Positions 1 to 62,092 of a DNA stretch of 64,000 nt are shown here, one piece after another; positions within the stretch are counted from its first letter, which is position 1; every line of letters starts with the position of its first letter. Made by a program: the position numbers and the translations under genes. The notes below the pieces were generated by a model. The model was not told the DNA's origin. It saw only the letters and a list, made by a program, of their open reading frames with translations, and did no database searches. This stretch comes from Centroberyx gerrardi. Its lineage: Eukaryota > Chordata > Actinopteri > Beryciformes > Berycidae. The stretch spans positions 27,323,492 through 27,387,491 of the forward strand of contig NC_135998.1 of assembly GCF_048128805.1 (NCBI RefSeq), written 5' to 3'.

Positions 1-1800
1 AATTACAACTAAATTTCTTGCTACTGGCCTTACGTTGGCAAGACAAAGTACCTAATTCAGAGTGGATCAATTAGTAGACAAATATTTAGTCAATATTTAG
101 CTCAGGGACCAATTATTATTATTATGATTATTATTATTATCATTATTACAAAGTAAGAATATAATATATATATTGGAGACACAACTTGACACAACAAGTT
201 GTAAATGATTTATTTGAGGTTATCTTCCATCCATATATTCAAAGAATAAAAAAAAAGCCCTAATTGATACTGAGGATAAAGGCTTTAAATTTAATCAAGT
301 CAGCACAGTGTGCTGGGTAGCAGCTTATTGCCTTAGACATTTTAATGTGCTATAGCTCTGACTGATCTGTTCATCTAAAATGCTGCTGTGTATGAATTCA
401 GATTGGATCTGTGTTATTGTGTAGTGACCTCACGCTCGTGCTTCTCATAGTGCACAGAGGAATGTAGCACAGTGTGAGACATAAGGCCGTTCCCCAAGGC
501 TGCAGTGTTTTGGTTTTGCATGAAGTCACCTGCTGACTCAGCGTCTGCCAGGGCAACACATCATCTGTCCTTTTACAGAAAGAAGAAACGGGACATGTGA
601 GGACAGGATCTACATATTGAACAATCCTCCATCATTATGCTCAGGCCATGATAGATGGCTCTGAATAGATTTACAGCGTTATCAACCTGTAGTTTGCTCA
701 CACCAAATGAATATACGTATGAATATTTATGAATTAAAATGTATGAATCAACTGTGAACAAGGATGTATTGTAGTTCTCCATATATCTCTGCAACAAAGT
801 CACCAACACAAATTCCTGTACATTTATTGTACCTGAACACAACACTGTTCGTCTTGGATATAAAATGCATTAATCTTGACCCATTTGTATACAGTGTGTA
901 ATGTTCTTGATATTCAATAGAGTTTAGCATGTAGCTGCTGTGTAATACGGTTTAGAATCACCTGCTAACAAAGCTTTACATTATTAATGGCAGAAGGTGA
1001 GTCAGTATTGAAAATGGAGAAGTCCAGACAACTGACCTGCAGTCAACTGACCTGCAGCGTCACTGCAGCACCGAAACAGGCTGCTACAATTAAACAGGCT
1101 AGCCTATTTCACAGGATGAAGACCTTATATTTGTATTGCTCAACACTTTAAGCTCTCCACACCAAGTCTCAGATTTGATAGTAATAGATAGGCGTACCTA
1201 ATAAAGTGGCTACTGAGTGAAATTAGCCACATTAGGTGTACACCATGACTTCATCATTACTTCACACATGAGATCACCATTACGTCCTAATTACTTGACT
1301 GAGTTGTTGTGTCCCTTTAAGTAAAGTCATGGCATGATACAAATTCTGGAAATGCTTACTTAATGTACATCGATAGGAGACAAGTATTTGTCAGTCATGA
1401 GTTCATCATTACTTAATCAAGAGTTCAATGAATTCCTTCAAGTAAAGTCACACAAAGTTCTTTATAGTAATGATGAAAAAAAAATGAGGCTGCTATTCAG
1501 ACTGTCTGGAGTGACTAGTGGGCACTAGATGGCACTGTAGTTGTAACATGCTGAGTGAGCTGCGGGCCCTAACAGTTTCCCTGCAGGGTGAAGGATAAGA
1601 GAACTGCTCGATCAAACAGGGATGGAGATCATGAGCCGAGCTACAAGGAGAGCCACTCACATGAGTCTTCACCAGTGTCAGCTCAGTCTGGGGTGCTGCC
1701 ACCCAGTAAAACCTCCATCAGCTGCTGTGAGACTGCTGGAGGCGTGAGGTAGGCAATGTGACAACATAGACAACTTGATAACATGTAGCCTATGTATGTT
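1..1800. other. intergenic, AT-rich, no gene recognised
   Basis: No coding exon or RNA gene can be supported here. There is an (ATT)n run near 117-148. Two imperfect copies of a phrase resembling 'ttcatcattactt' followed by 'aagtaaagtca' lie around 1,245-1,330 and 1,400-1,450, suggesting a decayed local duplication. A 69-codon minus-strand ORF at 1,493-1,702 matches no family I know and lacks splice or promoter context. Confidence 0.6.
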
Positions 1801-7000: not shown

Positions 7001-7096
7001 AAAAAATGTTCCTGTTGTTATATAAATATCTGCACTTGATTATGGGATATTTATGATGAAACATTTCGTCTGTCCATCCTCTCCACTGTCTCCCAG
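4019..7096 (+). other. hic2 upstream region; candidate 5' non-coding exon and promoter near 4,080-4,534
   Basis: The stretch 4,080-4,540 is richer in CpG than its surroundings and ends with a plausible donor (cgtcag|gtaaaa) at 4,534/4,535. The hic2 coding exon begins at an acceptor (ctcccag) at 7,096. Joining these leaves no upstream in-frame ATG, so an exon here would be 5' UTR only. This is inference; a cDNA 5' end would settle it. From 4,540 to 7,090 I see AT-rich DNA without a recognisable gene. Confidence 0.3.
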
Positions 7097-7119
7097 GTGT
7101 GTATGCCAAAGCCGTTGAG

Positions 7120-9375
7120 ATGGAGCAGCCAAATTACGCCAAGCAGCTTTTGATGCAGTTGAACCAGCAGCGATCCAAAGGATACCTGTGCGATGTGATC
7201 ATCGTGGTGGAAAGCGCTCTCTTCCGGGCGCACAAGAACATCCTGGCGGCGAGCAGCAGCTACTTTAAATCCCTGGTTCTCCACGACAACCTCATCAACC
7301 TGGATACGGAGATGGTGAAGCCCTCAGTGTTCAGACAGGTGAGCAACCTGAAGAATCAACGTACATATCCAGTATGTATGCAGAGGTGTGACCAACTTTG
7401 CTCGAGTCCCAAGTCAGTCTCAAGTCTTGAGGCACAAGTCTCAAGTCAAGTCCCAAGTCTAAATGTAGATCAGCAAGTCAAGTCCATGTCATTAATGTCA
7501 AGTCTCAAGTCTAAATGTAGAACAGCAAGTCAAGTCAGAACAAATCAAGAGTCCAGTATCAATTTAATATCTTAAAGAAAACTAAATATCTAGGACTTTT
7601 CAATGCAATATGGTTTTAATAGGATAAAAACTTGGTAAGAGCATCATGAGTTTGATTTCTGGAATCAGTTTCAACTTCAATAAATTCAATCATTCCATAC
7701 AAATTCAGAAAACAGAATTTAAATTCAGTCGTCTGCTGGAACAAATCTCATCACTTTCAATCTAAGTCATTTACACAAACACAAGATCTCAAGTCAAGAC
7801 TTTAGAAACCTTTTCAAGTCATCAAAGTACAAGTCAAAGTCAAGTCCCAAGTCACCAGAACCCAAGTCAAGTCAAGTCTCAAGTCTTCTCTTCATGCATC
7901 AAGTCAAGTTTCAAGATTGTTTGTGTTTCACATGACTGATTTAAGAGTGTATAATGACAGTGACGTGGAAGTTCTCCCTCCCCTCCCTTCCTCTCTCACA
8001 TTTCTTCTAGGTGTTAGACTTCATCTACACCGGCCGGCTGCCTCACTCTGACCACATTAGTGACCCGGGCGTCTCTGCCCTCCTCACAGCTGCCTCCTAC
8101 CTCCAGCTGTCGGACCTCGCGACTCTCTGTCGCAGGAGACTCAAACTCTCCAGCTCAAGCAAGACTCCCTCCTCCACCACCTCTTCCCTGACCCCCAACA
8201 GGCATTTGTTCCACCCCCATCGCCTCTCCTGCGCCCCGCTGAGAGTCAGCCACAACTACCGCTCCGTGTCCATGGAGGTAGGTAGGAGTCAGAAAGAGGA
8301 TCTGTCCGAGGAGGAGCTGTTTATCGCACGGTGCGTGTCTCTCAACCCACCTCCAGGAGTTAAGGTCGATAACGGTGTTGAAATGGGGCTGACCGCGAAG
8401 AGTCCGACAGGTAGTACGGCCACGGAGGAAGTGAGCCCCAGCAGCCTATCATCTGATGATTTACCTTCTAACTCCACCTCAGCTTTCTGTAACCCAAGAC
8501 CGGAGCAAGGGGAAGATCAGTCCCAGCAAAAGGCTCGCAAGAGGTCCAGACCCGGCAGTGAGGGCTCTATGGAAAGGATGGCCAGTGGGCAAGGTAAGAG
8601 GCAAGTGGCAAGTGGAGAGCGGGTGCATGGAGAGGAGAGGGCATCGTCAGAGTTGGAGGACCAAGAGGAGGTTAGAGAAGGAGAGGCAGCCTTAGAGAAC
8701 GACCTGGAGAACAGCGAGGAGAGCGTCCAGAGCGAGAGCGAGGAAGAGGAGCCGAGGGAAAACAAGGATGCCGGCTACATTTACTATCAACCACAGCCAG
8801 GGTTTGAACCGGCTCTGGGGGACAACCTGTACGTGTGCATCCCTTGCAGGAAAGGCTTCCCGAGCTCAGAGCAGCTTAACGCTCACGTCGATTCGCACAC
8901 CGCAGAGGAGTTAAGCATCAAAGTGAGGGATGCGGAAGAGGGGAGGTCCGTCAAGGGTGAAGATCGAGATGCGTACCCAGAGAATCTGCCGTCGCAATCC
9001 ACGAAGGAGGACGCCAAATCGGACCAACTTCTGCCGTGCCACATCTGTTCCGTCTGCAGTAAGAGCTACGTGGACGCGGCGTTGCTACGGCAACACGAGA
9101 AGAGCCACTGGCTGACCAGGCCGTTCCCTTGCAGCATCTGCGGGAAGCTGTTCACCCAGAGGGGCACCATGACGCGCCACATGCGCAGCCACCTGGGCCT
9201 CAAGCCCTTCGCGTGCGAGGAGTGCGGCATGCGCTTCACACGCCAGTACCGCCTGACGGAGCACACGCGCGTCCACTCAGGAGAGAAACCCTATGAGTGT
9301 CGGCTCTGCGGGGGGAAGTTCACGCAGCAGCGCAACCTCATCAGCCATTTGAGAATGCACACGTCGCCCTCTTGA
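7120..9375 (+). CDS. hic2: HIC2-type BTB/POZ and C2H2 zinc-finger transcriptional repressor (two coding exons)
   Basis: Exons are 7,120-7,338 and 8,011-9,375 (phase 0, CAG|GTGAGC ... TTCTAG|GTG), giving 527 aa; human HIC2 is about 615. I chose the ATG at 7,120 because the protein then begins like HIC2 (MExPxxxKQLLxQLNQQR) and the frame has no earlier ATG after the 7,096 acceptor. The BTB domain is roughly residues 10-120 (YLCDVIIVVE, FRAHKNILAASS, SLVLHDNLINLDT, VLDFIYTGRL). The middle is serine-rich, then acidic (about 288-323). Five C2H2 fingers lie at about 349-369, 419-439, 447-467, 475-495 and 503-523; the last four form the conserved DNA-binding block, ending HLRMHTSPS as in HIC2. HIC proteins repress transcription in the nucleus through GGCA-containing sites. 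The family CtBP motif GLDLSKK is not recognisable. Adjacency to PI4KA supports HIC2 over HIC1. Confidence 0.92.
7339..8010 (+). repeat. hic2 BTB-splitting intron filled with a CAAGTC-type minisatellite
   Basis: This 672-nt intron separates VFRQ from VLDFIYTG inside the BTB fold. About 7,395-7,560 and 7,790-7,920 consist of short variant repeats built on 'caagtc', 'caagtctcaagtc' and 'cccaagtc', with a duplicated phrase 'ctaaatgtaga(t/a)cagcaagtcaagtc'. The intervening sequence is AT-rich. Confidence 0.8.
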
Positions 9376-15118: not shown

Positions 15119-38855
<23,737 letters not shown>

Positions 38856-56823: not shown

Positions 56824-57435
56824 ATGGCTGTCCCTCCTTCATACTCAGACCTGGGCAAATCTGCCAAGGACATATTCAGCAAGGGCTATGGTGAGTACTC
56901 CAACAACCCTACTACAACCTGTTCAAACCTGGAGTTTCAGGGTGTCCAGCTGTGAGACCCATGTCCGGTGTGCGGATGTGCAAGCTAGAGAGATCCATAA
57001 AAATATAAATTTCATCTTGGTGGCAATGGGGCAATTTACAAAACAAGCTATCTTTCACAGGTGAAAATAAATATGTTGGCTTTAAACTACACATAACAAA
57101 AGTTCAGGACATGAAATTTCGCCATCTAAAAATATGATGATATGCATTGTGGAGTTCAAAAAATGTTAATGCAATCTCATCTGCGGTCTGATATCTAAGA
57201 AATGACATTCAGAATGGTCTTTTCTCTTTTGCATTGTTTGAACACTAGAGCATGTAAGGCATTGGAGATGAAATTGGTACTGAAGATTATTTGAATTGGA
57301 TTTACAAAGGTCTTAAAAAGTTTTAAATTTAACTTATAGAAACCGGTAGTCACCATGTTTATGATTTTTCCCTCAATAAAAAGGGATTTTTTTCAGTCAT
57401 AATTCAGATTTTGCTAAAAAAAAATAGTAATATAT

Positions 57436-57477
<42 letters not shown>

Positions 57478-60400
57478 ATATATATATATATGTGTATATA
57501 GTAATATTGAACCGTGAACCCAGTATTGTGTATCGAACCGAACCATGAGCTGAATGTAATTTCATCCCTACTTTAAACTTCATATCGACTTTACTTTGAA
57601 GTAATGCCCAGTCTGTTTTGTTGTATTTGATGTGATTAATTTGCTTGTTTTTGAGCACCTGTTGACTGCTTACACAAAACTCCATCTTTTGAACTCCACC
57701 AGGCTTCGGTGTCGTGAAGCTGGACCTGAAGACCAAGTCACAAAGTGGAATGGTGAGGAGACTTTCGCCTGTCTTTACCTTCTCTCACCCTCTGGATGCT
57801 TTCTACCTAATACATTTCCCCGCCCTGCCTTGTCCTGCCTTCACTCGGCATCATTTATGCAGTCTCTACCCCCCACCCCCCACCCCACCCACTGCCATCA
57901 TCACCAAAAGAGAAAGAAAGAAAACAGGAACATTAAAAAAAACCTTTAAAATCCATGCTTTTGTAACTATAAGTGAACTCCTTTGAGCTTTAAGGTTTAC
58001 AGGTTGACGACGAGTGGCGCTGACACTGCTGTGCTTGGCTTAATCTGTGCTTTATTCTAGAGAAACACGACAGGCCCGTATGCATTAGTGGCCTGTCTGT
58101 CTCTCTACCTGCCTTTCCTAACCCCTGCTCTGTCTCCACGCTGCTGCCCTCTGTCCTGGACTGCTCTCACTCTAATGTAGATGGTAAGACCTGGTCCCAG
58201 AGCTAACGGCTCCAACTGTCTGTGTGCTTGGAAATGCAAGCGGTTGTTGTCAATGGGTTTTTGTCCTGTTATTCAGTCATGGATGTTTTTCCATTGTTGT
58301 TGTTATCATCGTTCTTTCTTTGTGAAAATCATTTCATTATGATGAAAATCAGTGTAATTTCTAGCTTTTGTGTTTCTTCCATATTCTATTATACCACTAT
58401 CAGTCATTTCTCACTGTTCGTCATGAGTCTCATTTCTTTGTAGAGAATGTCTTTGGCTGTACTCAGTCCAAACGTCTTTTCATCATCATCTTTTCACATT
58501 ATAATTTGTCACAGTCTTTTGTGTTGTTGGTTCTAATTGGTATCTTATAGGGTTGCATGATTAATCACATTGAAATTGCTATGTGAACATCTAAAATTAT
58601 ATCTAAAACGCATAAGGCTACAATTTTAAAAGATATTATACATTTTCAATTTTACACTCTCAATTAAACAAGCTTGTTAGATACACATCTGTGGAAGAGC
58701 TGCACTACACATTTTCTGACAATCAGAAACCAGTCACCAGAGGCAAAGTTGAATAGGTAGAGAGGAGTGTGTGTGGCCAGTTGGGCACTGAAAGAAGAGG
58801 AGGAAGAAATGGAAATGTTGGAAAATGTTACAAAATGTGAAAATAATGAAAAAGTCCACAGCTGTATTGCCCAGTGGATATTTTGATCAGTTGTGGTGTA
58901 TAAACTTTTGAAAATAGGCTGCAGCTTAAATTATTTTCATATTCGTAGGATGTATTTTGTTATTATGATCTACATGTCTGTGGACATGTCATTTAACTCC
59001 CTTATATAACCGTATTTTATATACAAATTGTGTTCTTTCCCATGATGCATTTCTGTCGATGACATATATATCTAATTAACTATAAGTTAATTTAGATCTC
59101 AGCTCTCTGGCTCCCAAGTTGATCATCTGCTTTCATCTCTTGTACAGAGAACACAGTAATGTTAGGCAACTTGGCTTGCTTGTTAATGTTAGGAACTGAA
59201 CCGTTTGAAAACATATGTTATAACATACATACATACATGTGCTTTATTATAAAATGCAAGAGTGTGTGGTCTTACAATCATATAAAGATTTAGCTATTTA
59301 ACTAGCTCTTTAACTGTGTGCTTTGGCCTTGTCACAAGGAAATTTGAGATATTGTCTCAATTATATTGCAGTGCAAATCACAATTGCAATATTTATCAAA
59401 GCGCTCAGTGTGTTTTTGTCCATCTCACCCAGTCCTCATGTCTTGCATGGACTAGCATTACTGTTCAGGGTTTTCTCACAGTTCTCTGGCTGTCTTGCTT
59501 TACAGTATTGATGTATTTAATGTTACATGTCTGTCATCGTCCTAGCTGTCATCCTCCCATTTCTCACACTCTAATACTGTTTCTCCTTATTTCTTTACAG
59601 TTTCTGCTCACGTAGTTCATGAATCATTAAGTTTGGCCTCAGTTGTAGTTAGCACATTTTTTTTCCTAGTGTGTTTTCCCTCTGTAATTTAATGTCATGC
59701 TTTGGATATTCTATACACATACTCTCTGTATTAGTCTGTTTTATTATTTTCACACTTTTTGTCAGTCAGTGTATATTTGGCCTTTCTGACTGACTGTGAC
59801 ACACTAATGCTTCCTCCCCTGTGTCACCCTCCTCCTCCTCCTCCTCCTGTCAGGAGTTCAACACATCTGGCTCCAGCAACACAGACACAGGGAAAGCTGC
59901 AGGGAGCCTGGAGACCAAATACAAGATGAAGGAGCTGGGCCTCAGCTTCAACCAGAAGTGGAACACAGATAACACGCTCGCTACTGAAGTCACCGTGGAG
60001 GACCAGGTAGGTGTATGTCCAAAGAGAAAGTGTTGAAATTTGTTTAAATAACTGATGAAATTGCATTGTGCGTCTTTTCACTGGTATGTTGACGTTTTTA
60101 AAGGCTAAAAAACTGCAATGTTACTTTCTCTACAGCTGGCTCAAGGACTGAAGGTTGCCTTGGATACGTCTTTTGTACCAAATACAGGGTGAGTCTTAAT
60201 TCATTTGTATGAATGAATGACACATACTGGAAGTGACCCATCCCACACGGGATTACATGACACATTATGTAATAGATATAAAAATAAACAATGGGCAAGG
60301 CTTGGCAGGATTGGGAACCCTGAATGACCCAAGCACAGTGGGGAAAGCCCCGACTAGCACATCCTGGTTGTCTTTCCATCTTTTTGTTAATAATTAGCTG

Positions 60401-62092
60401 CTATCCTGATGCTTGAGTTAAACCCCACTGGGTTTTTGAGTAATCCCTTCTGCACTTAATCCATTTTTTTTTTCATTTTATTTTCCACTGGCCTATTGCC
60501 ACAAACATTAGAGTCCTACAGGAATCTAGGCAGCGAAGTGAGAATAAACCAACATCTATAGTCCATGTTATGTTCCTTTCCAGGAAGAAGAGCGGCAAGC
60601 TGAAGACGGGCTACAAGCGCGACTACATCAACCTGGGCTGCGACATCGACTTCGAGGGTCCCATCATCCACGCCGCTGCCGTGCTGGGCTACGAGGGCTG
60701 GCTGGCTGGCTACCAAATGGCCTTTGACACCGCCAAGTCCAAACTGGCCCAGAACAACTTTGCCCTTGGATACAGGGCCGGGGACTTCCAGCTGCACACC
60801 AATGTGTGAGTACCAGACCCCACTGCTCTGATTTTGATGAAACGTAGAGGCATGATGCGTCTTCGCACTGTGTTCCAGCGATCCTTACAAATGATACTGA
60901 TTGGCCTAATGGGGGCATTAAAATTAAAGGTCAAAATTTAAAACTCGCACATGATTCCTCACACACCACTGGTATCTTGATGACACTTGGAGGGATCATA
61001 CATTTTGGCACTGTGTTTTGCTGTTTAAAAAAATTAGACTGATTGGCCTGATGGGGATGCTATAATTAAAGGTCAAAATTTCAAACTTTGAAACTGCAAC
61101 ACCACTGGCCTGATTTTGATAAAACTTTGGGGGGGTGATGCATCTTGTTGCTGATTGTTGCTGAGGGATGAGAACAGATGAAAATTAGCCCTGTCAAATA
61201 AATGTAATAAATAAATAAATAAAGAAGTAAATTGGCCCAAGGGGTGCATGTATCATTAGTGGAGCATTACTATAATTTTTATTCAGACAGTGGGGACGTG
61301 GAAAGGGAGACACAGTAGTGAAGGTTTAGTGGGGGCACATGTGTGGTTTCACTGGTGGAATACTTAACCTCTGGACTATCTCTGGGCGTGCTATTGGTCC
61401 GGAAAGAAGTAGGTTTAATATCGTTCTTTCTCTTAATGACTGTCCCGTCTCCCTCAGTAACGACGGCACTGAGTTCGGCGGGTCCATCTACCAGAAGGTG
61501 AACGACGAGCTGGAGACGGCAGTCACTTTGGCCTGGACAGCCGGCAGCAACAACACTCGCTTTGGCATCGCCGCCAAATACAAGCTGGACAAAGACGCCT
61601 CTCTGTCTGTGAGTGCGCCGTCCATCCATTTACACTGTCGTTTCATATTCTGATCTATTGAGGTGCTCACAAAAACAACGTTGTGATGTCTCATGACTTA
61701 ACTTGTTGAACCCTTCAGGCCAAAGTGAACAATGCCAGTCTGATCGGAGTAGGCTACACCCAGAGCCTTCGGCCAGGTATGCTTTGAGCCCCAACTTTCT
61801 CTTATGTTTATTGTTATAACTCTGTATTAGTCGTACTTTCTTGCTCATGACTTCTTAATTAACTAACATTCTGTGTTGTTTGAAAGGATGAATTCTTACG
61901 CAAAGAAAATGTGATTTGGTAAACCGTTTCCGTGCCATTCGTGCTCTGCAAATTCTTTTGTTATTCCTCGTTCCTAAAATGTTCCTCACGCCTTTTGCAG
62001 GGGTCAAGGTCACCCTCTCAGCCCTGATCGACGGGAAGAACTTCAACGCCGGCGGACACAAAGTCGGCATGGGCTTTGAGCTGGAGGCATAA
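56824..62092 (+). CDS. vdac3: voltage-dependent anion channel, VDAC3 type, complete, 8 coding exons plus optional microexon
   Basis: Exons: 56824-56890, 57703-57752, [58181-58183 optional], 59854-60006, 60136-60188, 60584-60805, 61458-61608, 61719-61776, 62001-62092. They total 846 nt and 281 aa without the microexon (VDACs are about 283). This outer-mitochondrial-membrane beta-barrel passes ATP, ADP and other metabolites. It has the N-terminal helix ([20 protein letters not shown]), GLK at 94-96, and the end [17 protein letters not shown]3 is favoured by glutamine at position 73 (FNQKWN; VDAC1/2 have glutamate), [27 protein letters not shown], and the ATG microexon. The barrel is two residues shorter at CDIDFEGP (family CDxDFxxAGP). 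The MAVPP start resembles VDAC1, so a VDAC1/3 label swap is the main alternative. Confidence 0.93.
57430..57500. repeat. (TA)n microsatellite with TGTG interruptions, vdac3 intron 1
   Basis: Long TA run with short tgtgtg interruptions. Confidence 0.95.
57505..57571. mobile_element. terminal fragment of a hAT-like element, vdac3 intron 1
   Basis: The phrase 'aaccgtgaacccagtattgtgtatcgaaccgaacc' followed by 'catccctac' resembles the end of a common fish hAT family. The opposite terminus was not found. Confidence 0.4.
58181..58183 (+). CDS. vdac3: 3-nt ATG microexon of VDAC3 (alternative)
   Basis: The trinucleotide ATG lies between a good acceptor (ctctcactctaatgtag, pyrimidine-rich upstream) and a strong donor (GTAAGA), in the intron between codon 39 (exon 2 ends 57,752) and codon 40 (exon 3 starts 59,854). 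Mammalian VDAC3 is known to have a tissue-specific 3-base ATG exon at this position that inserts one methionine. Inclusion here would give Met39-Met40 before EFNTSG. Position, phase and splice signals all agree; usage in this species is unproven. Confidence 0.8.
58548..59406. mobile_element. degenerate hAT-like element, vdac3 intron 2 (tentative)
   Basis: The left end 'agggttgcatgattaatcacattgaaattgc' and the right part 'tgcaaatcacaattgcaatatttatcaaag' resemble the two ends of a common fish hAT family with AATCGCAATT-type subterminal repeats. A clean right terminus and TSD were not found. Confidence 0.35.
60825..61140. repeat. two to three diverged tandem units (about 130 bp), vdac3 intron 5
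   Basis: Units share the order: 'cactggcctgattttgatgaaac', 'gcatgatgcatctt', 'gcactgtgtt', 'gactgattggcctgatgggg', 'attaaaggtcaaaatttcaaac'. Copies begin near 60,815, 60,965 and 61,100 (partial). Confidence 0.7.

Follow-up and report, generated by a model that had tools for sequence, protein, structure and literature searches.

Whether a single ATG inside an intron of a fish VDAC gene is an exon in its own right is the question raised by a stretch of 64,000 nucleotides from the genome of Centroberyx gerrardi (hereinafter referred to as the window). In mammalian VDAC3, a single ATG forms a whole exon, as stated in passages of two reviews (PMC8374620, PMC7831034) that refer to Sampson 1998 and to Decker and Craigen 2000. 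The mammalian exon contributes a single Met at position 39 of the mature protein, and its relevance is given there as not established (PMC7831034). In the passage concerned, PMC8374620 describes the exon as giving a shorter protein, contrary to the title of Decker and Craigen 2000. An earlier, sequence-only reading of the window had proposed that a fish VDAC3 keeps this microexon.

Gene structure and the candidate microexon

A VDAC gene with eight coding exons was identified on the + strand of the window (56824-62092). The deduced protein of 281 residues matched Pfam Porin_3 (E 2.9e-95). Coding exon 1 (56824..56890) starts from the ATG, and its residues 1-24 were matched in the protein search of the genome. 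Exon 2 (57703..57752) ends with codon 39, which is ATG (Met39), and exon 3 (59854..60006) begins with codon 40. The gene continues with exon 4 (60136..60188), exon 5 (60584..60805), exon 6 (61458..61608), exon 7 (61719..61776), and exon 8 including the stop (62001..62092), all on the + strand.

The intron from exon 2 (ending at 57752) to exon 3 (starting at 59854) was 2101 nt long. It contained the candidate 3-nt microexon, an ATG corresponding to one Met (58181..58183, + strand), in the arrangement TAG-ATG-GTAAGA, with the acceptor AG at 58179..58180 and the donor GTAAGA at 58184..58189. This was the sole YAG-N(3..27)-GTRAG arrangement within the intron. The position between codons 39 and 40, the preceding AG and the following GTAAGA were all verified as first read. 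Because exons 1 and 2 together comprise 117 nt, inclusion of the ATG would insert one Met, in phase 0, after codon 39. Codon 39 is itself ATG, and the inclusion form would therefore carry Met-Met, which bears out the isoform that had been predicted.

VDAC genes in the genome

A protein search of the genome, in which only the best candidates were scored, yielded 24 matches, corresponding to five VDAC genes on C2 (the window), C8, C15, C20, and C11. In a tree of eight proteins, the window and C8 proteins were split from the rest at 100/99, and the C11 protein paired with PDB VDAC1, also at 100/99. The C15 and C20 proteins were placed with two PDB VDAC2 chains in a part of the tree without resolution. 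As the window and C8 proteins are split from VDAC1 and VDAC2, the two genes are classified here as VDAC3-type, chiefly by exclusion. In a tree with a provisional human VDAC3 sequence, the human protein joined the window and C8 proteins at 86/98 and the fish pair was recovered at 92/91, both values being under the tool's mark for firm support.

The homologous intron of the C8 gene carried CAG-ATG-GTAAGA. AG-ATG-GT was absent from the homologous introns of the VDAC1/2-type genes on C15, C20, and C11. The wider arrangement YAG-N(3..27)-GTRAG occurred at three places in the C8 intron (the ATG, a 12-mer, and a 21-mer) and at one place each in the C20 (25 nt) and C11 (24 nt) introns, and was not found in that of C15. 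Conservation of the ATG microexon was found in this second copy, within the same genome only. The reading of the window gene as a VDAC3-type gene carrying a phase-0 single-Met microexon is thus supported by the sequence, the tree, and the second gene copy.

Frequency of the arrangement in the genome

In the 778,876,752 bases of the genome, AGATGGTAAGA occurred 195 times in the forward and 223 times in the reverse orientation (418 in all); the reversed-pattern control gave 159 and 165 occurrences. From the genome counts, the expected number per intron was 5.6e-4 for the window (2101 nt) and 3.1e-4 for C8 (1167 nt). When the introns were shuffled with dinucleotides retained, YAG-ATG-GTRAG appeared in 9 of 5000 shuffles for the window and 1 of 5000 for C8; a YAG-N3-GTRAG arrangement of any kind turned up in 409 of the 5000 window shuffles and in 380 of the 5000 for C8. 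The five VDAC genes yielded 34 introns totalling 16,412 nt (the border of C15 exon 6 is 6 nt off in this count, and corrected in the tree and the splice scores). Among them, YAG-N3-GTRAG was present in three cases, namely both sites of the ATG exon and a GTA in another intron of the C8 gene.

The GTA case, CAG-GTA-GTAAGA, lies in the fifth intron of the VDAC gene on C8 (L035, reverse complement, 4144) and is probably due to chance.

Splice signals

Splice sites were scored with a matrix built from the 34 constitutive junctions of the five VDAC genes. The microexon donor scored 9.23 in both copies, higher than 23 of the 34 constitutive donors, and in each of the two introns it was the only GT to score as high. 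The acceptor scored 1.10 in the window and 9.37 in C8, exceeding 0 and 19 of the 34 constitutive acceptors, respectively; in the window intron, 32 of the 94 AGs reached at least 1.10. The acceptor had been called canonical in the sequence-only reading: its AG is present, but its tract is weak.

An AG-free pyrimidine-rich zone of 90 nt (58089..58178) precedes the microexon acceptor of the window, and an AG-free zone of 96 nt precedes that of C8. AG-free runs of at least 90 nt numbered three in the window intron and two in the C8 intron, and both acceptors end one, which is a post hoc observation. A CTAAC at 58118..58122 represents a possible distant branch point, its branch A lying 60 nt upstream of the microexon; the corresponding word lies at -54 in C8. 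These signals can fairly be read as those of a putative regulated exon whose branch point may be distant. CTAAC was rejected as evidence in itself, as it was found in 1853 of 5000 (window) and 280 of 5000 (C8) shuffles, which is not significant.

A UGC-type motif shortly before the acceptor is typical of neural microexons that depend on srrm3/4. TGC was located at -19, -36, -39, -55, and -71 relative to the window microexon and at -27 and -73 relative to that of C8. These words were also rejected as evidence in themselves, their numbers being 5 vs 5.5 in shuffled sequence for the window and 2 vs 1.6 for C8.

TGCATG words and dispersed repeats

TGCATG was present twice in the window intron (58554-58559 and 59444..59449), vs 1.08 expected by shuffling, and was absent from the C8 intron. 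In exons enhanced by RBFOX, a conserved downstream TGCATG is enriched over chance. The first of the two words had been proposed as an RBFOX-type site. The word does stand there, but the RBFOX reading fails, since TGCATG is not enriched, the named word lies inside a repeat end, and the C8 intron lacks it. The repeat end (58550..58565, + strand) holds the first TGCATG in GGGTTGCATGATTAAT, a form of GGGYTGYAYGATTAAT, for which 45 matches were found in the genome vs 1 in the reversed control; 9 of the 45 contained TGCATG. The likeness reached a copy on C6, with 76% over 79 query bases plus a second piece, and two other copies over 35 and 38 bases. We read the stretch around the first TGCATG as the apparent end of an old repeat and not as an enhancer common to both copies.

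Two pieces within 58548-59353 of the window matched a locus on C6 (L010), their orientation relative to each other being the same there. Possibly they are the two termini of a single old element, which would then explain most of the difference in length between the window and C8 introns. Intron 5 of the window VDAC gene (60810-61160) contained repeated, diverged copies of a motif, probably a dispersed repeat, a relative of which was found near the C8 VDAC gene (L040, about 2389-2642).

Duplicated block and age of the gene pair

In the window, VDAC3 is preceded by a zinc-finger gene and then a PI4KA-like gene. The zinc-finger gene (7060-9372, about 7-9.4 kb, + strand) encodes C2H2 fingers and is one that we take to be HIC-like, with a BTB domain; its closest relatives were found on C8 and C6. 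Its best match elsewhere in the genome was on C8 at 18.926 Mb (+ strand, 83%), the C6 copy showing 69%. The exons of the PI4KA-like gene (about 16500-25000, minus strand) gave a PI4K_N match above the cut-off and a kinase match below it, and the best match elsewhere in the genome was again on C8, at 18.971 Mb (minus strand, 93%). The C8 VDAC gene follows these copies at 19.12 Mb, in the order seen in the window; on C8, the VDAC gene is on the opposite strand. The same order of the HIC-like, PI4KA-like, and VDAC genes on C2 and C8 indicates a duplicated block, and we infer that its duplication was the teleost genome duplication. When the 20 kb beside the C8 gene were compared with window ORFs of at least 25 aa, no further common gene was found, only a repeat.

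Given that the ATG exon is present in both VDAC3 copies of the duplicated block and that its chance expectation is low, the microexon most likely predates the duplication, to judge from the two introns. The longest word common to the window and C8 introns was 11 nt, which makes recent gene conversion unlikely. An 11-mer common to the flanks of both copies was matched in length by four other common words. Local flank conservation was rejected as added support, because the 120-nt tile over the microexon only shared about 12th place among 100 when gap scores were permissive.

Comparison with published microexons

As far as the reviews describe it, the mammalian VDAC3 exon resembles that of the window in gene type, in consisting of ATG alone, and in its site. 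Two differences were noted from the mammalian exon as described there: the codon before the insertion, codon 39, is itself ATG in the window gene, so that inclusion would give Met-Met, and two gene copies carry the ATG exon in C. gerrardi.

For zebrafish, Appendix 1 of PMC12626424 contains vdac3_mic (VastDB EX0084235) together with a deletion line; the main text of that paper names vdac3 three times, each time in this appendix. The set of that study, in the sections concerned, consists of 21 microexons selected because they are sharply included in neural tissue, depend strongly on srrm3/4, and have a regulation that is conserved in human. RT-PCR was reported for 21 of 21, gross morphological abnormality for none of the 18 deletions analysed, and loss of inclusion in srrm3/4 mutants is published for the selected zebrafish set (PMC12626424). 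According to our reading of its table, zebrafish vdac3 is a member of this set. EX0084235 is thus like the window exon in belonging to a fish vdac3, and by the criteria of the set it is neural, srrm3/4-dependent, and conserved with human in its regulation; the comparison covers gene and set membership. Two-copy retention is a feature of C. gerrardi, with no mention for zebrafish vdac3 in those sections of PMC12626424.

Of the further sources, PMC7821500 reports 402 microexon pairs common to zebrafish and mouse, "vdac" being absent from its main text, and PMC11505094 includes vdac3 in a splicing study of largemouth bass, with the event not named in the text available. The available parts of PMC6778102, PMC8784847, PMC5179545, PMC12626420, and PMC11506323 held nothing further on the VDAC3 ATG exon. 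Among the matches listed in the literature searched (titles and abstract starts), none concerned a microexon in duplicated VDAC3 genes.

A vdac3 microexon of zebrafish is in the literature, so that its conservation in fish is probably no longer new, and the fish-mammal conservation of the VDAC3 microexon is probably already in print, going by these sections. An origin before the fish-tetrapod split had been suggested from the window; the zebrafish microexon, from a set whose regulation is shared with human, agrees with it, but most of the implied novelty is gone. What is new here is the retention of the microexon in both VDAC3 copies, and the novelty is modest.

Alternative readings and proposed function

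We read the observed arrangement, its intron and phase, the second copy, and the absence from the VDAC1/2-type genes as those of a real 3-nt cassette microexon, which is very probably orthologous to the mammalian ATG exon and was, on this reading, already present in the gene from which the duplication made the two VDAC3 copies. That the ag-ATG-gtaaga is a decoy without a splicing role could be argued from the 418 occurrences of AGATGGTAAGA and the weak acceptor of the window copy. Such an account is extremely improbable, as the ATG site recurs in the homologous introns of both VDAC3-type genes and is missing from the three others, the expected numbers per intron are far below one, and the site is the one described for mammals in the reviews. 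The C8 copy lends strong support to the microexon reading and makes a chance origin unlikely. It is scarcely credible, too, that the pair of signals serves stepwise removal of the intron and not a retained exon. Acceptor and donor nearly adjoin, but three in-frame bases separate AG from GT and the intron measures merely 2.1 kb; at recursive sites, AG is joined directly to GT, and such sites are known from very long introns.

The inequality of the acceptors (0/34 in the window vs 19/34 in C8) bears on the state of the window copy. An ancestral microexon might still be used in C8, the window copy having lost efficient inclusion through decay of its acceptor tract. We consider this improbable, because the donor, the AG, the exon letters, and the 90-nt AG-free zone of the window copy are all intact, and weak acceptors are usual in regulated microexons. 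Alternatively, the copies may have split their regulation after duplication, the window copy being strictly switch-like through its weak acceptor and the C8 copy more broadly included through its strong one, a suggestion that is rather doubtful at present.

If the cassette microexon is real, skipping would join codon 39 to codon 40 and give the common 281-residue channel, and inclusion would add one Met with the frame unchanged. The strong donor, together with a weak acceptor that follows a long pyrimidine tract free of AG, would set a default-off state in the window copy. In neurons, splicing to the weak acceptor would probably be promoted by an activator of the srrm3/4 type, the exon being skipped elsewhere. 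SRRM_C matches over the cut-off were found at two places in this genome. Judging from VDAC structures, the extra Met would presumably be located close to the barrel's first beta-hairpin, and may there affect the channel.

An exon of one residue that has been kept in two copies since the duplication, and that is common to mammals, points to a selected effect of the single Met. The unequal acceptors of the two fish copies would provide a clean comparison for this effect in a mitochondrial channel and, if the regulation of the copies has indeed been split, the pair would constitute a natural experiment on one extra Met in the channel.
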